DNA from: Chitinophaga pinensis
Lineage (GTDB): Bacteria; Bacteroidota; Bacteroidia; Flavobacteriales_D; Crocinitomicaceae
Reading direction: 5' to 3'
Length of the DNA: 64,000 bases
NCBI GenBank assembly: GCA_945883825.1
Contig: CAMCYF010000005.1
Coordinates: forward strand, 1-64,000
The notes under the pieces were generated by a model that was given only the letters and a program-made list of their open reading frames with translations, had not been told where the DNA came from and did not search any database. Made by a program: the position numbers and the translations under genes. Below, piece by piece: positions 5,043-63,610 of the stretch. Each line of letters opens with the position of its first letter. The first letter of the stretch is position 1.

Positions 5043-6356
5043 TTAATATCTGTAGTGCTCTGCTTTAAATGGTCCTTCAACAGCAACTCCAATATAATCA
5101 GCTTGGTCTGTTGAAAGTGTTTCCAATTCTACACCAATTTTTGCAAGGTGCAAACGTGCTACTTTTTCATCTAAATATTTAGGAAGCATGTACACATCAT
5201 TTTTGTAATTAGCAGAATTTTGCCATAATTCTATTTGTGCCAATGTCTGGTTTGTGAATGAATTAGACATCACAAAAGAGGGATGTCCTGTAGCACAACC
5301 TAAGTTTACTAAACGACCTTCTGCTAAAACAATAATGTCTTTTCCGTTGATGTTATACAAGTCAACTTGTGGTTTAATTTCATTCTTTGTATGTCCGTGA
5401 TTTCCATTTAACCAAGCCATATCAATTTCATTGTCAAAATGACCAATGTTGCAAACAATTGCCTTATCTTTCATTTTTTCAAAGTGTCTTCCGACCACGA
5501 TATTTTTATTTCCTGTAGTTGTTACAATGATATCTCCTAAATGAACAACAGTGTCCAATCTTTTTACTTCAAAACCATCCATTGCAGCTTGAAGTGCACA
5601 AATTGGATCAATTTCAGTAACAATTACTCGAGCTCCTGCACCTTTCAAAGAAGCAGCTGAACCTTTTCCAACATCTCCGTAACCACAAACAACGGCAACT
5701 TTTCCTGCCATCATTGTATCGGTTGCTCTACGAATTGAATCTACTAAAGATTCTTTACAGCCATATTTATTATCGAACTTTGATTTCGTAACAGAATCAT
5801 TTACGTTTATAGCAGGCATTACGAGCGTACCATTTTTAACACGTTCATATAAACGGTGAACACCGGTAGTCGTTTCTTCAGAAAGTCCTTTTATTCCTGC
5901 AGTTAATTCTGGAAAACGATCAAAAACCATATTTGTTAGATCTCCACCATCATCTAAAATCATGTTCAAGGGTTGATTATCCTTAAAAGCAAAAATTGTT
6001 TGCTCTATGCACCAATCAAATTCTTCTTCTCCCATTCCTTTCCAAGCAAAAACAGGAATTCCAGCAGCAGCAATTGCAGCAGCGGCATGATCTTGCGTGG
6101 AGAAAATATTACAAGATGACCATGAAACTTCTGCTCCAAGATCAATTAAAGTTTCAATTAAAACGGCTGTTTGAATGGTCATGTGTAAGCAACCTGCAAT
6201 ACGAGCTCCAGCTAAGGGCTTAGAAGCTCCATATTCCTCACGTAAGGCCATTAAGCCGGGCATTTCTGCCTCTGCCAATCTGATTTCTTTTCTTCCCCAA
6301 GCAGAAAGACTTATGTCTTTTACCTTGTGTGCTAATTTCTCTGATGTGTTGCTCAT
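5043..6356 (-). CDS. ahcY: Adenosylhomocysteinase (SAH hydrolase)
   Basis: Splits S-adenosylhomocysteine into adenosine and homocysteine, removing the inhibitory product of methyl transfer. The 437-residue protein carries the NAD-binding motif GYGDVGKG at 225-232, the substrate-domain stretch [13 protein letters not shown] at 54-66, and the conserved C-terminal KAEHYRY. The window encodes many SAM-dependent methyltransferases (pcm, prmA, rsmD, O-methyltransferase, FkbM, PmtA-like) that would supply its substrate. An exact TAAATTTG promoter element lies 23 bases upstream of the ATG, between this gene and the end of hemH, so it has its own promoter. Confidence 0.97.
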
Positions 6357-7521: not shown

Positions 7522-8493
7522 ATGGTTGATTTTTCAAATTTACTAGCAATAAAATCTGATTCAGATTTCGAGAGAATTGCCTTGGAGGTCTTTCATTATC
7601 AACTAAAAAATTGCATTGTTTATAGAGATTATGTCCACCTATTAAATCGTCAAAATCTAAAGTCTTTAGAAGAAATTCCATTTTTACCGATTGAATTCTT
7701 TAAGACCAATGAAATTTATTGCGGTCAAAAAAGCGGTAAAGATATTTTGTTTTTAAGCAGTGGAACTGGAAATAGTACACGCAGTAAACACATTGTTCGC
7801 GATATTAAGTTGTATGAATCTAATTTTAGAGCGATTTATCATCAATTTTTCGGTGCTATTTCCAACCATGTTATTTTAGCTTTATTACCAAATTACCAAG
7901 AGCAGGGGAATTCAAGTTTGGTATACATGGTAGATACTTTGATAAGGGATTCAGGAAATATCTTATCTGGTTTTTTGTTATATGAACCTGAGGAAATCGA
8001 AATTCGCTATAAAAAAGCATGCGCTTCAGGTAAAAAAGTTATGATTTTTGGTGTTTCTTATGCCTTACTAGATTTAGCAGAAAAAAATATAAATTTGAGT
8101 GAAGCAGTCATAATTGAAACCGGTGGAATGAAAGGGCGCAGAAAAGAAATATCAAAAAAATCACTTCATCTTGAATTGATGAAAGGTTTAAATGTTCCTT
8201 TTGTTTCCTCAGAATATGGTATGACAGAATTGCTTTCTCAGGCTTATAGTTTCAAGGATGGTATTTTTTCATATCCTCCATGGATGAAAGTTCTTTTTAG
8301 AGAAGTACATGATCCTTTAACTTTAATTGAAGGAAGTGGGAAAGGTGCAATTAATGTTATTGATTTAGCAAATATTCACAGTTGTAGTTTTATTGCTACA
8401 CAAGATTTAGGAAGAAATGTGCCTGGCGGATTTATTTTGGAAGGCAGAATGGAACAATCAGATTTGCGTGGCTGTAATTTAATGGTAGATTAG
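7522..8493 (+). CDS. LuxE/PaaK-like acyl-activating (acyl-protein synthetase) protein
   Basis: A 323-residue member of the adenylate-forming LuxE-like group, which activates a fatty or aromatic acid as acyl-AMP. The phosphate-binding loop SSGTGNSTRSKH is at residues 79-90. A PFLPIEFFKT stretch near 53-62 and the later SSEYGMTELLSQAY also fit the family. Luciferase and reductase genes (luxAB, luxC) are absent, so this is not a lux operon. Flavobacteria commonly carry a stand-alone copy of this gene; its acyl substrate is unknown. The ATG start is supported by the promoter element just upstream. Function beyond acyl activation is inference. Confidence 0.8.
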   Translation: MVDFSNLLAIKSDSDFERIALEVFHYQLKNCIVYRDYVHLLNRQNLKSLEEIPFLPIEFFKTNEIYCGQKSGKDILFLSSGTGNSTRSKHIVRDIKLYESNFRAIYHQFFGAISNHVILALLPNYQEQGNSSLVYMVDTLIRDSGNILSGFLLYEPEEIEIRYKKACASGKKVMIFGVSYALLDLAEKNINLSEAVIIETGGMKGRRKEISKKSLHLELMKGLNVPFVSSEYGMTELLSQAYSFKDGIFSYPPWMKVLFREVHDPLTLIEGSGKGAINVIDLANIHSCSFIATQDLGRNVPGGFILEGRMEQSDLRGCNLMVD

Positions 8494-8536
8494 TTAGTAC
8501 TAATAATTGAAAAGTATAAGTTTTAAAAATCATTTA

Positions 8537-8544
8537 TATCTTTG
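8537..8544 (+). promoter_or_regulatory. -7 promoter element for TSUP/M20 operon
   Basis: TATCTTTG matches TAnnTTTG exactly, with 14 bases to the ATG at 8559. It heads the three coupled genes 8559-10565. Confidence 0.5.
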
Positions 8545-8558
8545 ATAAAATAATTCAC

Positions 8559-8954
8559 ATGACTCCACAGACAATTTTTATGCTCGTTTCAATTGGGCTT
8601 TTTGCAGGATTGCTAAGCGGCTTTGTTGGAGTGGGTGGCGGGATCATCATTGTTCCTGCACTTGTTTTTCTTTTGGGATTAACGCAGCATCAAGCACAAG
8701 GAACAAGTTTATTTGTTTTAATGCTTCCAGTTGTTTCTTTTGCAGTATTAAATTATTGGAAAAGTGGAAATGTTAAATGGGAATATGGACTAGTAATAGC
8801 AATGACATTTATCGTAGGCGCATTTTTTGGATCAAAATTATCTTTAAAAATATCTCCAGGACTTGTGCAATTAATTTTTGGAATTTTAATGGCATATATT
8901 TCTTTTCGAATGATTCTTTCAGGCTACACTTCAATTTCTTCAAATGAATCTTGA
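8559..8954 (+). CDS. Half-size TSUP (TauE/SafE) family membrane transporter
   Basis: A 131-residue inner membrane protein with four hydrophobic segments and the glycine-rich TSUP motif GLLSGFVGVGGGIIIVPAL near residues 15-33. Family members usually have two such repeats and about 250 residues; this one has one repeat and probably works as a dimer. TSUP proteins export or import small sulphur or carbon anions; the substrate is unknown. The end overlaps the start of the M20 gene by 11 bases, so translation is likely coupled. The shortness is not caused by a visible frameshift. Confidence 0.85.
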   Translation: MTPQTIFMLVSIGLFAGLLSGFVGVGGGIIIVPALVFLLGLTQHQAQGTSLFVLMLPVVSFAVLNYWKSGNVKWEYGLVIAMTFIVGAFFGSKLSLKISPGLVQLIFGILMAYISFRMILSGYTSISSNES

Positions 8955-10131
8955 GCTAAAAGAAGTAATCACTACCAAAGTTTCTACTATTTATGAAAAA
9001 ATAAAGGGTTACAGGGAGCATTTGCATCAAAATCCAGAGCTTTCCTACAAGGAATTCAATACAATGGAATATGTTGCAGCAAAGCTCAAAGACATTGGAA
9101 TTCCCTATGAAAAAGGTGTCACTGGAACTGGAATCATTGGTATTATTCGTTCTTCTAAACATTCAGAAAATCAAGCTTGCATAGGTTTGCGTGCAGATTT
9201 AGATGCTTTGCCGATTCAGGAGCAAAATACAGAGGCATATAAGTCAAAAGTTGACGGCATAATGCATGCTTGCGGTCATGATGTTCATACATCTATTTTG
9301 TTGGGGGCTGCAGAGATTCTTTTTGAATTGCGTGAGTACTTAGAACATCCTGTAAAACTAATTTTTCAACCAGGAGAAGAAAAAAATCCAGGTGGTGCAA
9401 GTTTACTAATTGAAGCAGGAGTCTTAGAAAACCCAAAAGTTAAGGAAATGTATGCTCTTCATGTATTTCCTGAGTTAGAAGTTGGCAAATTGGGAATGCG
9501 ATCTGGATTGTATATGGCATCTAGTGATGAACTTCATCTTGAAATTATTGGAGTTGGTGGTCATGGGGCTATGCCAGAGAAATGTATAAATCCAATTCTC
9601 ATTGGTTCAGAATTTATTGTTGAAGCACAAAACATCATTCATAAATCTTGCCCTAAGGAAGTTCCATGTGTAATAAGTTTTGGACATTTTGATGCACTTG
9701 GCGCTACGAATGTAATTCCTGAACGTGCAGAAATAAAAGGCACTTTTCGAACTATGAATGAAGAGTGGAGGGGAAAGGCAGCTATTCTTTTAATGGATCT
9801 CGCAAATAACTTGGAAAATAAGTACAAAGGAAATGTTAATTTGGAGATTTCAAAAGGTTATCCTTTTTTAAAGAATGATGAAGAACTTACAGAAAAATTA
9901 AAAGCAAAATTTGAATCTTTCTTTGGTCCGAAAAATATTGAGGGTTTAGCACTTCGCATGACTTCTGAAGATTTTTCATTTTACAGTCAAACTATTCCAG
10001 TATGTTTTTTCCGTTTGGGAGTTGGAAACAAGGAAAAAGGTATTATTTATAGTGTTCATCATCCAAAGTTTGATGTAGATTCAGCGTGTTTAAAAACTGG
10101 GATGTTAGCTATGATACAAGCTGCTCTATGA
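8944..10131 (+). CDS. M20 family amidohydrolase (N-acyl amino acid / hippurate type)
   Basis: A zinc-dependent M20D-type amidase of 395 residues that removes acyl groups from amino acids or related amides. Metal and catalytic residues are visible: LRADLDALP at 82-90, HACGHDVHT at 108-116, and QPGEE at 142-146. A C-terminal SVHHPKFDVD carries a further metal-ligand histidine. There is no signal peptide, so it acts in the cytoplasm. The ATG at 8944 lies inside the end of the TSUP gene, and its own stop overlaps the next gene in an ATGA. The true substrate could be N-acetyl amino acids, hippurate-like compounds or auxin-like conjugates. Confidence 0.9.
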   Translation: MNLELKEVITTKVSTIYEKIKGYREHLHQNPELSYKEFNTMEYVAAKLKDIGIPYEKGVTGTGIIGIIRSSKHSENQACIGLRADLDALPIQEQNTEAYKSKVDGIMHACGHDVHTSILLGAAEILFELREYLEHPVKLIFQPGEEKNPGGASLLIEAGVLENPKVKEMYALHVFPELEVGKLGMRSGLYMASSDELHLEIIGVGGHGAMPEKCINPILIGSEFIVEAQNIIHKSCPKEVPCVISFGHFDALGATNVIPERAEIKGTFRTMNEEWRGKAAILLMDLANNLENKYKGNVNLEISKGYPFLKNDEELTEKLKAKFESFFGPKNIEGLALRMTSEDFSFYSQTIPVCFFRLGVGNKEKGIIYSVHHPKFDVDSACLKTGMLAMIQAAL

Positions 10132-56546: not shown

Positions 56547-57785
56547 CTAGATAAATGGATTCATTCGTTCAGAAAGAATTTCAATTTCATTTTTTTCACA
56601 AGAAAACCCAATTACTTTTGGAATTGTTCTAGAGCAATGCCGCGACCACAATCCTAAAGTATTTGCTCCCGTTCCTAAAATCCCAAGCCAATCATTTTCC
56701 TTTAGTATTGGGAGTTTAACGCCTTTGAGAACGTAATCACCTGCAAAACAAAGTGGACCTGCAATATCGTGAAGATATTTTTCATCTGAATTGTTTTCTT
56801 CTCCTTTATTATTTAGTGCAATTATGTCAAAATCTCGTGCTAATGTGTAAGCATCACGCATAAAATAATCAGCACCAAGATGAATAAATGCAATCTGTTT
56901 TTCTCCACGCTTAAAAGTGTATTCTATTTCTGAAAAAATAAATCCTGAATTTGTATGACACCACTGTCCAAATTCTGTTATTAGTTCAAAATCCCAAAGT
57001 TCTGGGCATGTTTCTTTTAATTTTTTTGCATATTCCGACATCTTTCCGACAATACCGTATTTTTCTGCAATTAGTCCACCACCAATATCCAATGTTAAAA
57101 TTCTTCTTTCAATTCCTTTTTTCTCTAATAAACTATTTGCTTCAATTGCTAAATCAAGAAGTTCTCTAACAGCAAAAACTGCTTTTGTCAAATCTTTCAT
57201 TTGACTTCCCGCATGTATGTGAAGTTGTTGAATCGGATGAGATAGAATGGCATTTAACAATGCTTCTTTTTCTAAAATAGGAACACCAAATTTCGATTCG
57301 TTATTACTAACACTATAAATTTCAGGGGAGTCCATTTGCATAGAGGGATTAATTCGAATCCCAAGAGTGAAATTTGGATTATCCGGCATTCTTTTTAATT
57401 CCTCTAAACTATTTGCATTTAGAATTAGTCCGTGCAATTCATTATTGCATTTTTCAATTTCACTTTGTCTTTTAACAGGTGAATCGAATACAATCTTATT
57501 GGGACTTGCTCCTGCCTTTATTGCCATTTCAACTTCTTCCATTGAAGCTGCTTCTAAGCTAAATCCCCAAGAAATAATTTTAGCCAATACACTTGGATGT
57601 GGGTTTGTTTTAATTGCAATTGCATGCGTAGCATTTGGATGATCAAAAATTGCGCTTAATTGCTCTAAATTAAATTTTAAATCATCCCATGATTGAAAAA
57701 TAAGTGCAGAATCATCATTAGAAATCAAAGAATTTGCGGACGCATTCCGAAAAGCCCAAAGTGCATTTTCCTTTATGTTTTTCAC
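56547..57785 (-). CDS. Fold-type III PLP-dependent decarboxylase-like enzyme
   Basis: A 412-residue enzyme of the alanine-racemase/ornithine-DAP decarboxylase fold. The Schiff-base lysine is Lys59 in AIKTN, the PLP-facing histidine is His191 in LHIHAGSQ, the phosphate-binding glycine loop is DIGGGL at 233-238, and the second-site cysteine is in GPLCFAGD (Cys346). The last motif resembles carboxynorspermidine/LysA-type decarboxylases, but the surrounding residues differ from both. It is coupled to the preceding PLP gene by a 4-base overlap. No lysine pathway gene is near, so it is probably not lysA. Substrate is unknown; a Y4yA-like or biosynthetic decarboxylase is possible. Confidence 0.82.
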   Translation of the reverse strand: MKNIKENALWAFRNASANSLISNDDSALIFQSWDDLKFNLEQLSAIFDHPNATHAIAIKTNPHPSVLAKIISWGFSLEAASMEEVEMAIKAGASPNKIVFDSPVKRQSEIEKCNNELHGLILNANSLEELKRMPDNPNFTLGIRINPSMQMDSPEIYSVSNNESKFGVPILEKEALLNAILSHPIQQLHIHAGSQMKDLTKAVFAVRELLDLAIEANSLLEKKGIERRILTLDIGGGLIAEKYGIVGKMSEYAKKLKETCPELWDFELITEFGQWCHTNSGFIFSEIEYTFKRGEKQIAFIHLGADYFMRDAYTLARDFDIIALNNKGEENNSDEKYLHDIAGPLCFAGDYVLKGVKLPILKENDWLGILGTGANTLGLWSRHCSRTIPKVIGFSCEKNEIEILSERMNPFI

Positions 57786-59182
57786 GGAAATAATTTTTTT
57801 ACAGCATTTTCAATAACTTGAATAAAAGCAATATCACTTTTTGGATTAAATTGATTATTCATAAGTTGCTTTCGAATAGAGTAGGAGCCAATTGCTAGAC
57901 GAATAAATGATTTCTCACCATATTGAACAGGTTGACCTAAAAACACGCGATTAAAATTTTCGATTCCCTCGTGTTCATTTAAAACAAGATAATCGAATAA
58001 TATTTTTAGTTCTTTATTATTTAAAGCAACACCATTTTTTATAACCATAAAAGAAATAATACTGTCGTTTGTCAATTCAATATCAGGCATTAAGCGAAAC
58101 AGATCACTTTGAGCTAAGCGTCCAATTACAACTTGATTCCATCTACGAATTAGGGCATTTGATTTTTCTTGAGGGAATGCTAAAAATGATTCCATTTCAC
58201 ACAATGCAATTTCCCACCTTAACCTTAATCCGATATTTTTGAATTTTGGTAAGTTTTCTCGCATTTTTTCAAATTCTAGTGGATAATCATAGGATGTAAA
58301 AAGTGAATTATATGTCTCCAATATGCTTGCATCTTTATCTTTGATTTTTTCAGACCAATATTTTGGCACCAAAAGAGCTCCGCAAAATGGCGGCGCCTGA
58401 TAAAATTTTGATCCGGTAATGCTTATCATTGCCCCTTTACATATTAAATCATGAATTAATTTTCTATCAGTACGAAATTGGCACATATCAACAACCCACA
58501 TGATCCCGTCCCTAAATTCATCAATTATTGCCAAATCGTCTTTAATTCCTGATTTACTACCAAAAACAAGATTACCAATAATCAATTGCTCAGGAAATTG
58601 ATTAATAAGATCTCTTATGGCTTGGTTGCGATCAACAATATTTCCATTTTCATCTCTTGCAGGAAGGTAAAAAACCTCTGATTTTACTTTTTCGCTGACA
58701 TTTTTCCCAATAGGCAAGGGTTTTCCGTATTGGCTCCATTCAGAAAAATACAGTCCTTCAGCTGCAGCTTTAGATCCAGACCCTAATTCTTCAGGACATG
58801 AGACTATGTTAATTATTTTCTTATTCGGATCAATTATGCATTGAAATAAAAGTGGTAAATACATTAAATCACTTCCGCTTGGCCCATAGAAAACATCAAA
58901 ATCCATCGACTTATAAATCAACATTGCTTTTAATCTTAGCGTTTGATTTTTAAGGATGCTTTCATATTTAGAGTCTCCGTAATTTTTTAAAAACTCTTGA
59001 CCTACTTTGTAGGCATCAGTAGTTAATGTCCCACAAGTACAAGATCCTCTGTGGAGCAATTTTTCAAATTTTATAGGATTTAGATGGTATTTATTGGCAT
59101 TTGTTGTTTCACTAATAAAAACACGTTCATCACAACCGGAAGTTAGTATTTCTAATAATAAGTCATCGTTTACATTTTCCAT
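57782..59182 (-). CDS. Fold-type I PLP-dependent enzyme of unknown substrate
   Basis: A 466-residue protein with a class V aminotransferase-like layout. Phosphate site: YGPSGSDLMYL at 99-109; cofactor Asp232 and Gln235 in VVDMCQF; Schiff-base lysine Lys259 in ITGSKFYQAPPFCGALLVP. An N-terminal RGSCTCGTLTTDAY near 45-58 has two cysteines close together, perhaps a metal or redox site. It could be a decarboxylase, lyase or transaminase. No close family name comes to mind. It overlaps the previous gene by 13 bases and the next by 4, so translation is coupled. Substrate is unknown. Confidence 0.75.
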   Translation of the reverse strand: MENVNDDLLLEILTSGCDERVFISETTNANKYHLNPIKFEKLLHRGSCTCGTLTTDAYKVGQEFLKNYGDSKYESILKNQTLRLKAMLIYKSMDFDVFYGPSGSDLMYLPLLFQCIIDPNKKIINIVSCPEELGSGSKAAAEGLYFSEWSQYGKPLPIGKNVSEKVKSEVFYLPARDENGNIVDRNQAIRDLINQFPEQLIIGNLVFGSKSGIKDDLAIIDEFRDGIMWVVDMCQFRTDRKLIHDLICKGAMISITGSKFYQAPPFCGALLVPKYWSEKIKDKDASILETYNSLFTSYDYPLEFEKMRENLPKFKNIGLRLRWEIALCEMESFLAFPQEKSNALIRRWNQVVIGRLAQSDLFRLMPDIELTNDSIISFMVIKNGVALNNKELKILFDYLVLNEHEGIENFNRVFLGQPVQYGEKSFIRLAIGSYSIRKQLMNNQFNPKSDIAFIQVIENAVKKLFP

Positions 59183-60243
59183 TCTTCAGGACAATTTACG
59201 GCAAAAAATCTCGATTTCTCTTTAGTTTTTTTATTCATCAAAGTTATCCATAAATTATGGGAGTCATGAACGAGTTCAGCTGAATTTGTTTTTAAATAAT
59301 TCACCCAAGTTGAATTTATAATGTAGTTATTAGTAAATTCAAAGGTGCCATCGTAGAAATAGCGATTTAGACGTACTTCGTTTTCGGAAATATGAATTAG
59401 TTCGTGCCATGCTCCTTCTCCAATACCTCCTATATAGATAAAATCTTCTTTTATATTTTCTGGAATAGTACTTGGCTTTTCTAATTGTCCAACAATTGAG
59501 TCAGTGGGAAGAAATTTTGCTTTTTTAGTAAAAAAAGACTCTAATCCTTTTCGAAATAAATCAGATAAAGCGTCACTAATTACTGCTTTCTCCCATTTCT
59601 CACTTCCATTTTCCCAAATTACGAAATCTCCAGAACTAGAAGCAGCCAACACATTGAAATAAGGAGTTTGAGAATAGGTATTTGGATTATTGAGTTTTTT
59701 ATATGTTATTGAATTTTCATCTAATCCCTCTAATATTGCTTTTGCTACAAATTTCCCGCAATTTGTTTTTTTTTTTTTTAGAGCACCATATTTTTGAAAC
59801 CCTTCTTTTTGAAGTGCTTTTGAATAACAGAGAATTTTCTCAATATTTACATCATAAGTTATGGATGCGTATAACGCTCCATCTCCATGTGTCCCTTTTT
59901 TCATCTCCTCTAATTCTTGAAAAATAGTAGAGGTGTTTTCTATTTCTCCATTCTCATTCCAAACAGGTATTGTTTTAATTTCAAGTTTTGGATCTGTTTC
60001 TTTGCTTCTGCATCTACTGTATCCAAGAGGTGATAGATAGCGACCTAAATCATAATAAAATAATTCATCGTTTTTTGCTATTAACATTGCGGCATGCCCG
60101 ATTCTAAAATTAAGATTTTTCATTATCCCAATTTTTTTCAAAAAAATCCATAATTTTTCTGGTCCACGTGCAATGACAAATGGCCATGCTAGGGAAATAA
60201 TCGCAGTATTTTTATTATCTAATGGAGAATTCATTTCGTTCAA
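59170..60243 (-). CDS. Papain/NlpC-fold-like protein of unknown function
   Basis: A 357-residue soluble protein. It has RIGHAAMLI (His50), then FYYDLGRY, and later KTNCGKFVAKAIL (Cys162). A histidine before the cysteine is the order of circularly permuted NlpC/P60 (YiiX-like) hydrolases. The rest is of mixed strand and helix; the C-terminal part (about 265-350) is beta-rich. The catalytic assignment is inference from two short motifs and needs structure prediction. No signal peptide is seen, so it is cytoplasmic unless exported otherwise. It follows the M61 gene by 3 bases and overlaps the PLP gene by 13. Function is unknown. Confidence 0.62.
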   Translation of the reverse strand: MNEMNSPLDNKNTAIISLAWPFVIARGPEKLWIFLKKIGIMKNLNFRIGHAAMLIAKNDELFYYDLGRYLSPLGYSRCRSKETDPKLEIKTIPVWNENGEIENTSTIFQELEEMKKGTHGDGALYASITYDVNIEKILCYSKALQKEGFQKYGALKKKKTNCGKFVAKAILEGLDENSITYKKLNNPNTYSQTPYFNVLAASSSGDFVIWENGSEKWEKAVISDALSDLFRKGLESFFTKKAKFLPTDSIVGQLEKPSTIPENIKEDFIYIGGIGEGAWHELIHISENEVRLNRYFYDGTFEFTNNYIINSTWVNYLKTNSAELVHDSHNLWITLMNKKTKEKSRFFAVNCPEEWKM

Positions 60244-60246
60244 AGA

Positions 60247-62004
60247 TCAAGAGATTTTAGAATTATTTTCACTCCATGCAAAGATTGCTTTCTCCTGATT
60301 AGGAGTTAATTTGACTTTTTTATTGATTTTATGATTTAAATAAAAAAATCGATTTACTTCAGGCAATGTTAGCTGCAATAGTTTTCCATTTCTAAAAAAG
60401 GAAAGTGTTTTTGAGCTTGCATCAAAGTAGTTTAGACATGCATCAAGATCATTGTTCAATTTTATTTTGTTCACTGCAATTAGTTCGTCCCCTAACGATA
60501 AGCCAGCCATTTCTGCAGGACTTCCTGGGTAAATAGCACTAATTAATAGGTGATTTGATTGATTAACAATTTTCATTCCCAAATTTGCTTCGGAATAAGA
60601 ATTAGAAGGAGTTTGAATAAGTTCAAGACCAATAAAGTCCAATGCTTCTAAAAGAATTGTTTCATACGGAGTTGTTCCATGAACATAATCGTTAAAGAAA
60701 TCTTGGAATGAATAGCCACATTTATTTTCAAGTTGATCAATGAAATCTTTTTCTGTATATCCTTTGTTATTTTGAGCAAAATTATAGTACAAGCGCTTCA
60801 TAACTTCTTCAATTCCTCGCTTATTATTTGTCGCCTTTCGAATTTTTGCATCCATTACAAATGCCAACAGACAGCCTTCTGTGTAGATTGAAACTTTTCT
60901 ACCAGGAACTCCAGGAACATATCCATCTAACCAAGTATCATAAGATGATTGTGCAACAGAGTAGGCAAATCTTCCAGGGTTATCAAAATGTTTTTGAAAT
61001 TGCTTACTTAATTCTCTCAAATAAGTTTCAAGTGAAAAAACACCACTCTTTAACAAATAAAGATCACCTAAATAAGTAGTAATACCTTCGTAGATATAAC
61101 CCAATTCAGAATAGTTTTCTTTTTTGAAATTATAAGGAAGAAGTTCTTTTGGTCGGATACTTTTTACATTCCAAACATGATAGAGTTCATGTGAGCAAAC
61201 ACCAAGTAATTCCTCATAGCGATTTTCAAACAAATCATATGAAGGACCAAGAGTGATTACAGTACTTTTAAGGTGTTCAACTCCGTGATAAGCAAGATAC
61301 GGAAGGGATTGAATGAGGAAATGATATTCGCTAACAGGAAACTCTCCAAAATCTTCGATTTGTTTAACTGTAAAGTTTCTGAAATCATTAATAACTCTTT
61401 CCCATGGAATATTTAATTGATTATTAAACCAAATATGGAAATTAGTATCTGCAACGATATAAGTTTGTTTCTCTAAGTTTTCAGAGCAAATAAAAGGCGA
61501 ATCTGCTAATTCATCAAAATTTTCTGCAAGCAAAAAGTTGTTTTCTTGAACTAAGGAACTTGCAATTGTATAATTTTCTGGAATATTCAATTCAAGGGAA
61601 ATAGGAAATAGTTCTTTTCCCTCTGCATATAGAAAGCAATTTACTGGATTTACATATAATTGCTTTTCGTCAAAGTAGCTTGCGCCAGCATTGAGTTCAT
61701 TTGCATAGTATTGGTATTCAATTTTAATATACTTTGTTTCGTTCGAACTTATCTCCCAGGAATCTTTATTGATTTTTTGAAAATTAACTGCTTTATTTTG
61801 ATCATTAAAAACTTTAAAATTTTTTATGTTTTTGGCAAAATCCCCAAGTTCATAACGCCCTGGTCGCCAAGAAGGAAGATGAATGATTGTTTTGTTTTTA
61901 TCTACGGGAAATTGCACTTTAATTTTTATAAAGTGTTGCTGTGCATTGTCACAATCGATGATATAGAATATTCTTTCTTGCAAATTATTATGCGTATAAT
62001 TCAA
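60247..62004 (-). CDS. M61 family glycyl aminopeptidase-like metallopeptidase
   Basis: A 585-residue zinc peptidase of family M61. The zinc motif is HELYHVWN at 272-279 (HExxH) with the third ligand in YEGITTY (Glu306), typical of glycyl aminopeptidases. An N-terminal beta domain covers about 1-165 and a PDZ domain about 465-550. No signal peptide is seen, although some relatives are exported. The ATG overlaps the end of the ABC-F gene by 17 bases. It is followed by the papain-like and two PLP genes, so the peptidase may be part of that pathway. Confidence 0.88.
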   Translation of the reverse strand: MNYTHNNLQERIFYIIDCDNAQQHFIKIKVQFPVDKNKTIIHLPSWRPGRYELGDFAKNIKNFKVFNDQNKAVNFQKINKDSWEISSNETKYIKIEYQYYANELNAGASYFDEKQLYVNPVNCFLYAEGKELFPISLELNIPENYTIASSLVQENNFLLAENFDELADSPFICSENLEKQTYIVADTNFHIWFNNQLNIPWERVINDFRNFTVKQIEDFGEFPVSEYHFLIQSLPYLAYHGVEHLKSTVITLGPSYDLFENRYEELLGVCSHELYHVWNVKSIRPKELLPYNFKKENYSELGYIYEGITTYLGDLYLLKSGVFSLETYLRELSKQFQKHFDNPGRFAYSVAQSSYDTWLDGYVPGVPGRKVSIYTEGCLLAFVMDAKIRKATNNKRGIEEVMKRLYYNFAQNNKGYTEKDFIDQLENKCGYSFQDFFNDYVHGTTPYETILLEALDFIGLELIQTPSNSYSEANLGMKIVNQSNHLLISAIYPGSPAEMAGLSLGDELIAVNKIKLNNDLDACLNYFDASSKTLSFFRNGKLLQLTLPEVNRFFYLNHKINKKVKLTPNQEKAIFAWSENNSKIS

Positions 62005-63610
62005 CTTGAAGCTGAGAAATTTTTGAATCTGCTAGGTATTCATCATAACTCATCATTTTATCAATAATGCCATTTGGAGTAATTTCCACGATGCGATTTG
62101 CAACTGTATTTACTAATTCATGATCATGTGATGTAAAAAGCAAGGTTCCTTGGAAATCCCTCATGGCATTGTTTAATGCAGTTATCGATTCAAGATCCAA
62201 GTGATTTGTTGGTTCATCCATCAGCAATAAATTTGCTTTCGCCAACATCATTTTTGAAAGCATACAGCGCACTTTTTCTCCTCCAGATAAAACAGATGAT
62301 TGTTTCATTGCCTCTTCTCCAGTAAATAACATACGACCTAAAAAAGTTCGTAAATAAACATCTTCACGTTCTTCATCAGTTTGAGCATACTGGCGTAACC
62401 AATCTATTAATGAAATTTTTCCAGAAAAATACGTGTGATTATCGTTTGGAAGATAGGCAGTTGAAATCGTAGTTCCTACTATGACATCTCCCTTATCTGC
62501 TTTTGCATTCGCGCTTAAAACTTCAAAGAAAGCAGTCAAAGCAACTGAATTTTTTGATATAAAAGCAATTTTATCACCCTTATTAACTATTAGGTTGATA
62601 TTACTAAAAAGATTTTTTCCATCAGATTTTTTGTTTAAGCTATCTAATGTTAGAACTTGGTTTCCAGCATCTCTTTCTTGATGAAAGGTAATGCCAGGAT
62701 ATTTTCTTGAAGAAGGTTTAATTTCTTCTAAATCTAAGTTGCTTAGCATTTTTCTACGACTAGTTGCTTGTTTAGATTTTGCAGCATTTGCAGAAAAACG
62801 GGAAATAAAATCCATTAATTCCTTCTTTTTCTCCTCTGATTTCTTGTTTTTGTCAGAGCGTTGTCTTAATGCTAATTGTGAAGATTGATACCAAAAACTA
62901 TAATTTCCTGTGAAAATATTTAATTTACTGAAATCAATATCGCATATATGCGTACAAACAGTATCTAAAAAATGTCTATCGTGTGAAACAACAATTACAG
63001 TATTTTTAAAATCTAATAAAAAGTCCTCTAGCCACGAAATAGTTTTTAAATCTAAGTCATTTGTTGGCTCATCTAAAATTAATACATCAGGATTTCCAAA
63101 TATTGCTTGAGCTAATAATACACGAACCTTTAAATCATTTGACAGTTCTTCCATCAAGAGGTAGTGTTTTGATTCTTCAATTCCTAGATTACTTAAAAGT
63201 GTTGCTGCATCTGTTTCGGCATTCCAACCTTCAAGATCTGCAAATTCTCCTTCTAATTCTGCAGTTTTCATTCCATCAGCATCTGAAAAATCAGACTTTG
63301 CATAAAGCGCATCTTTTTCAACCATTATTTCAAAGAGTCTTTTGTGACCCATGATTACAGTTTGAAGTACTTGGTTTTTATCAAATTCAAAATGATTTTG
63401 GTGAAGAACTGCCATTCTTTTTCCAGGTTCAAGTTCAACTCTACCTGTAGTTGGATCTTGATCTCCCGTTAGTATTTTTAAAAAAGTTGACTTTCCAGCA
63501 CCGTTTGCACCGATAATGCCGTAGCAGTTGCCATTTACAAATTTTACATTGACCTCATCAAAAAGCACGCGTTTTCCAAATTGAAGAGAAAGATTATTTA
63601 CACTAAGCAT
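61988..63610 (-). CDS. ABC-F family ATPase, YbiT-like, with a degenerate second site
   Basis: A 540-residue soluble protein with two ABC domains and no membrane segments, an ABC-F translation factor. Domain 1: Walker A GANGAGKST at 34-42, signature replaced by LSNDL (156-160), Walker B VLILDEPTNDLD. Domain 2: residues 352-360, where a P-loop is expected, read SKNSVALTA without GKS/T, but signature LSGGE at 441-445 and LLLMDEPTNHLD at 461-472 are intact. The linker at 247-305 is highly charged. Only one composite ATP site is therefore canonical. Its TATCTTTG promoter is 15 bases upstream. Confidence 0.9.
   Translation of the reverse strand: MLSVNNLSLQFGKRVLFDEVNVKFVNGNCYGIIGANGAGKSTFLKILTGDQDPTTGRVELEPGKRMAVLHQNHFEFDKNQVLQTVIMGHKRLFEIMVEKDALYAKSDFSDADGMKTAELEGEFADLEGWNAETDAATLLSNLGIEESKHYLLMEELSNDLKVRVLLAQAIFGNPDVLILDEPTNDLDLKTISWLEDFLLDFKNTVIVVSHDRHFLDTVCTHICDIDFSKLNIFTGNYSFWYQSSQLALRQRSDKNKKSEEKKKELMDFISRFSANAAKSKQATSRRKMLSNLDLEEIKPSSRKYPGITFHQERDAGNQVLTLDSLNKKSDGKNLFSNINLIVNKGDKIAFISKNSVALTAFFEVLSANAKADKGDVIVGTTISTAYLPNDNHTYFSGKISLIDWLRQYAQTDEEREDVYLRTFLGRMLFTGEEAMKQSSVLSGGEKVRCMLSKMMLAKANLLLMDEPTNHLDLESITALNNAMRDFQGTLLFTSHDHELVNTVANRIVEITPNGIIDKMMSYDEYLADSKISQLQVELYA

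Follow-up and report, generated by a model that had tools for sequence, protein, structure and literature searches.

The window analyzed here, 64,000 nucleotides of contig CAMCYF010000005.1 (GenBank assembly GCA_945883825.1), carries on its minus strand two overlapping genes for enzymes that depend on pyridoxal 5′-phosphate (PLP): a fold-type I enzyme of an unmodelled family (positions 57782..59182, hereafter gene 1) and, directly behind it, a fold-type III decarboxylase (56547..57785, hereafter gene 2). The two genes form a unit that recurs in eight families of Bacteroidota, and we favor, with moderate confidence, the view that their products act as a relay making a special amine, to which an acyl step would be added in the genus of the window, where a gene for a papain-like protein related to TseH (59170..60243) precedes the pair. 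An earlier, sequence-only reading of the window had proposed a dedicated pathway for these three genes and an M61 peptidase gene; the proposal holds for the two PLP genes but not for the quartet.

Conservation of the gene pair

Homologues of gene 1 were sought in three overlapping samples that include the window's own genome and cover part of the phylum. Of 60 relatives, 6 had a match, as did 16 of 395 genomes sampled from the class and, in a search with a profile, 15 of 395 sampled from the phylum; this gives a total of 31 genomes with a match, 28 of which (all but G555, G565 and G735) were mapped. In 20 of these 28 Bacteroidota loci, the window counted, a fold-type III gene lies directly behind gene 1 on the same strand. 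The sequence-only reading had called for such a neighborhood analysis across Bacteroidota, and what it revealed is a kept decarboxylase partner, not a kept quartet. The 20 pair loci span 8 genera in 8 families, and the two genes overlap by 1 to 23 bases in 17 of them, the remaining three gaps being 11, 48 and 87 bases long. Note that gene starts in this survey are the first ATG, GTG or TTG of the open frame, so that overlaps may shift, and that this rule shortened the fold-type I protein of locus L034; the fold-type III gene of L042 is truncated at the contig end and was excluded from the residue counts given below. Comparison of the trees of the two proteins gives a correlation of r = 0.71 (n = 20, with none of 10,000 permutations as high), which could also result from shared species history.

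The other eight loci include three, all from family f94, that join gene 1 to a decarboxylase of another kind. In L069 (6655-10299), a single fusion protein of 1214 residues combines the fold-type I enzyme with a group II PLP decarboxylase, and in L070 (8416-12082) and L073 (7050-10719) gene 1 overlaps a separate group II decarboxylase gene. The assignment relies on Pfam PF00282 in L069 (1.9e-50) and L070 (4e-52) and on NCBIfam in L073; among curated models, those for L-2,4-diaminobutyrate decarboxylase and aspartate decarboxylase come closest, at scores far under cut-off, and the best solved match of the L070 enzyme is the decarboxylase 4obu. The group II fold differs from the fold of gene 2 and is unrelated to it. 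Fusion to, or overlap with, this second type of decarboxylase supports the link between gene 1 and decarboxylation, the simplest reading being that the product of gene 1 partners an amino-acid decarboxylase of whichever fold. Upstream in L070 lie KAS III-like, MacB/FtsX and LolA-like genes, which we counted in favor of the relay.

Predicted folds and conserved residues of the two enzymes

Sequence comparison left gene 1 outside the curated families searched. The window protein matches nothing in Pfam or NCBIfam at E ≤ 1; 18 aligned members gave a few weak, scattered Pfam matches (best 0.013), none to a PLP family, and none of the 18 matches Aminotran_5 at E ≤ 1. Likewise, a search of PDB sequences with the family profile found no solved relative, the only matches having E-values of 0.17 and 0.73. 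An AlphaFold2 model of the protein (predicted local distance difference test score, pLDDT, 90.3; predicted template modeling score, pTM, 0.90) led Foldseek to class V aminotransferases, with PntC-AEPT, a fusion with an aminoethylphosphonate transaminase, at the top (1.5e-13). After realignment of the Foldseek candidates (hereafter VIA), the model gave a Z-score of 25.7 to the NifS-like protein 4ixo (root-mean-square deviation 3.3, 332 aligned residues), with alanine–glyoxylate aminotransferase (AGT) and PhnW scoring similarly; the 50 matches shown have Z-scores of 23.8–25.7 over 332–364 residues at 8–14% identity. The structural search suggested by the sequence-only reading thus yields a prediction: the fold of gene 1 is the class V PLP fold of NifS, AGT and PhnW.

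Among the residues invariant in 21 fold-type I sequences, window included, are Asp232, Gln235, Lys259, Arg176, Arg237, Arg322 and Arg428. We take the first three to be the PLP-site Asp, Gln and Lys of class V enzymes. Arg428 presumably sits in the C-terminal region with which class V enzymes bind the α-carboxylate. The presence of several invariant arginines would suit an acidic substrate. Four of the mapped homologues (L046:8629-10701, L047:8252-10324, L071:9620-11716 and L072:8714-10786) are of a long form, 690–698 residues, with an N-terminal extension.

Gene 2 belongs to the fold-type III decarboxylase superfamily, as indicated by Pfam (Orn_Arg_deC_N, 1.9e-29; Orn_DAP_Arg_deC, 2e-8) and by the catalytic residues Lys59, His191, Glu271 and Cys346, which it keeps; Lys59 and Cys346 are invariant in 14 sequences. 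The sequence-only reading had singled out these two residues, together with Lys259 of gene 1 and His50 and Cys162 of the TseH-like protein, all of which proved invariant in their alignments. The nearest solved relatives of gene 2 are diaminopimelate (DAP) decarboxylases, but its score against the LysA model TIGR01048, 142.6 bits, is less than half the cut-off (297.9), and its scores against the NCBIfam polyamine models are far below theirs. A signature, GPLCFxGD plus W[ST]xHCSR, is present in 19/19 full-length pair members and in 0/12 LysA proteins of relatives. More specifically, Phe347 replaces the LysA Glu (CF versus CE) and His-Cys 383-384 replaces Tyr-Asn in all 19, the CE and YN forms being found in 12/12 LysA proteins of relatives, and Asn375 stands in place of the LysA Tyr in 18 of the 19. 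On these sequence grounds, gene 2 is not LysA. We assume that the LysA Glu found at the Phe347 position has a role in handling the distal amine of the substrate; its replacement then argues against a substrate with such an amine.

The distribution of LysA was compared with that of the pair in the genus of the window. A LysA over the cut-off is present in 3 of its 37 genomes, all three outside the four that carry the pair, whereas 30 of the 37, some of them incomplete, lack both LysA over cut-off and the pair, indicating that the pair is no general substitute for LysA. With LysA in 3/37 genomes, most members of the genus may import lysine or use another enzyme. Genome G038 carries both LysA (399.5 bits) and the pair. 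The genome of the window has no LysA over cut-off and possesses a separate SpeA-like gene elsewhere.

The TseH-like gene and the packed gene run

The protein encoded directly before gene 1 in the window matches Pfam TseH (1.8e-38) and, more weakly, the DUF6695 C-terminal domain (2.1e-7), and its residues His50, His119 and Cys162 are invariant in 17 aligned sequences. Its predicted model (pLDDT 87.7) realigned by VIA to the TseH crystal structure 6v98 with a Z-score of 17.1 over 171 residues within positions 9-219, the second-best match having a Z-score of only 5.2; Foldseek's own ranking of the model held nothing at E ≤ 0.001, and a search of PDB sequences gave a best E-value of 0.042. No strong match to a solved structure was obtained for the part beyond the TseH domain (about 265-356), where the best Z-score is 4.1. 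Altogether, Pfam, the fold and the His-before-Cys order place the protein among permuted NlpC/P60 enzymes. According to PMC12994826, TseH (DUF6695) falls among permuted NlpC/P60 lipid enzymes, in a clade tied to lipid acyl chemistry, and phospholipase activity of TseH was seen in one of two assays, a fluorescence assay at pH 8.9. The earlier description of the papain-like protein and the M61 peptidase as two amide-handling hydrolases is therefore doubtful, and an acyl step would fit the TseH-like protein better than an amide step, judging from the predicted fold and from the chemistry of its clade. We found no support for the related suggestion that the pathway handles an amino acid released from a peptide.

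The TseH-like gene lies directly before the pair in 4/4 loci of the window genus, although the flanking genes differ between L008/L009, L010 and the window genome, and these four account for all the occurrences of a TseH-like gene beside the pair (4/20 pair loci). In G271, it is found on the pair's contig, about 10 kb away; in G717 (L067) and G736 (L068), no TseH-like match was found anywhere in the genome. Counted by genus, TseH-like proteins occur in 4/8 pair genera versus 11/132 other sampled genera, which may still include one pair genus lacking them (p = 0.005), and in 3/7 pair genera when the window's own genus is removed (p = 0.02); a weak match in G037 (7.8e-4) was left out of the counts.

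In the window, the pair and the TseH-like gene end a packed run of five minus-strand genes. The sequence-only reading had correctly placed and spaced four of them: the M61 peptidase gene (60247..62004) is separated by 3 bases from the TseH-like gene, which overlaps gene 1 by 13 bases, and gene 1 in turn overlaps gene 2 by 4 bases. It had missed the first gene of the run, which codes for an ABC-F type ATPase (61988..63610) and overlaps the M61 gene by 17 bases (61988-62004). The start codons are TTG for the M61 and TseH-like genes, ATG for gene 1 and GTG for gene 2; for the TseH-like gene, translation may actually begin at an in-frame ATG three codons downstream of the TTG, which encodes a Met4 shared by all 17 aligned homologues. 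The ABC-F protein was identified by Pfam (ABC_tran in two stretches, 3.5e-36, and ABC_tran_Xtn), and so was the M61 protein, a peptidase of that family (M61 N, 7.6e-45; M61, 2.7e-37) with a PDZ domain, in whose sequence an HELYH motif is visible; we take this motif to have a zinc role.

A scan of genome contigs turned up a single near relative, L007, from the metagenome-assembled genome 'Flavobacteriia bacterium isolate WB4_2_0139'. It keeps the ABC-F, M61 and TseH-like genes with the same spacing, including the 17-base overlap, and its contig holds only the first 37 residues of gene 1; protein identity is 99% for ABC-F, 91% for M61, 91% for the TseH-like protein and 86% for the stretch of gene 1. 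M61 adjoins the pair only in the window genome and in L007, and no M61 homologue was found in the stretches around the other three pair loci of the genus. We regard the M61 and ABC-F genes as local neighbors without a shared role. Rare co-occurrence of the four genes, with M61 beside the pair in these two genomes only and the TseH-like gene beside it in the window genus only, led us to reject a four-gene pathway.

Distant fold-type I homologues on rhizobial plasmids have other surroundings. In L029, L030 and L032 (near 7953-9488), the start of the homologue overlaps the end of a giant frame by 4 bases; the frame is annotated as a non-ribosomal peptide synthetase in L029 and L032, and the homologue is followed by a gene with a ParB N-terminal domain; SagB and phosphopantetheinyl transferase genes also lie downstream in L029 and L032.

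Candidate products and known systems

If the two enzymes act in relay, gene 1 would make or remodel an α-amino acid, either by amino transfer or by replacement or elimination in the side chain, and gene 2, as a dedicated α-decarboxylase, would remove the carboxylate of the gene 1 product to leave the special amine. In the window genus, the TseH-like protein added to the packed run would most likely act on an acyl group, either by acylating the amine or by taking the acyl group from a lipid, and the pathway would then end in an amine that is N-acylated or linked to a lipid; elsewhere in Bacteroidota, surface glycans or other conjugates may receive the amine. The analysis establishes the coupling of the genes, their predicted folds and catalytic residues, the difference from LysA and, in family f94, the fusion to a second type of decarboxylase; the substrate, the product, the order of the steps and the acyl step are our inferences. 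Such a relay would unite a PLP family unmatched by Pfam and NCBIfam with a partner decarboxylase, the f94 fusion linking both functions, and as the pair consists of two small proteins, its metabolite is directly testable.

Several observations weigh against this relay or against parts of it. Five of the 28 mapped loci (L045, L046, L047, L071 and L072) have no fold-type III partner and no decarboxylase among the few neighbors scanned, and four rhizobial plasmid loci show no fold-type III gene, suggesting that other pathways, too, can make use of the fold-type I enzyme; in L008, L039 and L040, the few scanned neighbors are housekeeping-like or unnamed, with no pathway partner among them. As for the acyl step, the TseH-like gene adjoins the pair in 0/14 of the other pair loci seen (18 loci viewed), and it is present in 10 of the 20 pair genomes, being, outside the genus, either absent or located elsewhere, not beside the pair in mapped loci. 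In one of two assays, by mass spectrometry, TseH was inactive on phosphatidylglycerol and phosphatidylethanolamine, as reported in PMC12994826. Finally, the order of the two PLP reactions could be reversed.

The best surviving alternative, which we still regard as rather unlikely, is that the pair makes a building block of surface glycans and has only an incidental neighbor in the TseH-like gene. The surroundings of the pair in L012, L033, L034 and L037, and those of the solitary fold-type I gene in L045, contain glycosyltransferase, flippase-like, capsule or ATP-grasp genes; however, the scanned neighbors of the window locus (helicase, ABC-F and M61), like those of L008, L039 and L040, are not glycan genes, and glycan clusters are variable and collect unrelated genes.

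It is also possible, and in our opinion unlikely, that the pair makes a stand-in for a product of ComA (phosphosulfolactate synthase), an enzyme common in these bacteria; the stand-in could be, for example, a cysteate- or taurine-like sulfonate or a functional substitute in the envelope. In the window genus, comA is missing from 4/4 pair genomes versus 3/33 others (Fisher p = 5e-4), the latter three genomes being 74, 94 and 81% complete. Among 80 chosen Bacteroidota genomes, comA is present in 47/54 without a fold-type I match, in 5/20 with the pair (p = 8e-7) and in 1/6 whose fold-type I gene stands alone or is linked to a group II decarboxylase; both p values ignore the relatedness of the genomes. 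The window genome, G000, retains the comA site in a 17-kb stretch outside the window (L158), where 13 of 14 frames correspond, in the same order, to those of the comA region in relatives and where the TPR and WD40 genes bordering comA in relatives (G015, L125) lie 20 bases apart (6211-6232); tblastn found no comA remnant in this stretch. The TPR, comA and WD40 genes were not found in an 18-kb stretch of G009, and just one gene of the region was found in G014 and in G030. In a SpeA tree that covers 20 of the 37 genus genomes, G030 not included, G000 is not sister to G009 plus G014 (node support 0.907), making more than one event likely. In L037, comA adjoins the pair in a divergent group of genes that also codes for a His phosphatase, an ATP-grasp protein and a Polysacc_synt protein, an arrangement that we also counted in favor of the relay. 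Against a stand-in for the ComA product, five pair genomes possess ComA, and two genomes without the pair, G070 (f24) and G199 (f74), lack it, so that shared ancestry explains part of the pattern. We treat the exchange between comA and the pair as a lead, not as a function; if real, it points to an envelope or sulfonate role. A separate candidate, a coenzyme M route, was rejected: the lyase encoded behind the pair in L012 reaches 439 bits against XcbD (cut-off 600) and 473 bits against 3-carboxymuconate cycloisomerase (cut-off 595), under cut-off for both.

A bolder version of the relay can be imagined, in which the pair would be a portable two-enzyme amine route that replaces a ComA-derived sulfonate role in some lineages and whose product the TseH-like protein of the window genus would acylate, resulting in a new membrane lipid; we view this combination as doubtful.

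Equally centered on the third gene, but improbable, is the idea that the TseH-like protein is a secreted antibacterial effector with which the PLP genes are merely co-transcribed. TseH is a type VI effector from a clade with conflict-type contexts, according to PMC12994826. On the other hand, Pfam shows no secretion gene in the five-gene run (no genome-wide search for type VI genes was made), and the TseH-like gene is kept directly before the pair in all four genus loci despite their differing flanks. Least of all, and in agreement with the sequence-only reading, do we believe gene 2 to be an ordinary lysine or polyamine enzyme (LysA, SpeA, ornithine or carboxyspermidine decarboxylase), a role that we rejected: its distant homology to LysA and DAP decarboxylases and the lack of LysA over cut-off in the window genome speak for it, but the sub-threshold scores, the residues replaced in 19/19 members, the many genus genomes devoid of both LysA and the pair, the coexistence of both in G038 and the separate SpeA-like gene of the window genome speak against it.

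A relay of this composition has no named counterpart in the literature that we searched on the PLP pair, Y4yA, loline, DUF6695 and aminolipids, as the sequence-only reading had surmised; on the pair itself, no paper was found. In the loline pathway, a class V-type PLP enzyme (LolT) and a fold-type III decarboxylase (LolD) are encoded in one cluster, which is fungal and has more genes. The literature on it led to grass endophyte fungi, and we set the analogy aside as a likeness in gene content. Considered one by one, the three proteins resemble known enzymes more closely. Gene 1 shares its predicted fold and the conserved Asp, Gln and Lys with class V enzymes (NifS/IscS, alanine–glyoxylate aminotransferase and PhnW) but differs from them by an identity of 8–14%, by the lack of an Aminotran_5 match in 18 members and by invariant residues of its own. 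Gene 2 has the fold family and the catalytic Lys, His, Glu and Cys of LysA and BtrK-type fold-type III decarboxylases, and departs from LysA in its sub-cut-off score and in the substitutions F for E, HC for YN and N for Y. The TseH-like protein shares with TseH (VCA0285)/DUF6695 the fold of the N-terminal domain and the His-before-Cys order, and is set apart by its region at about 265-356 and by its position before metabolic genes.

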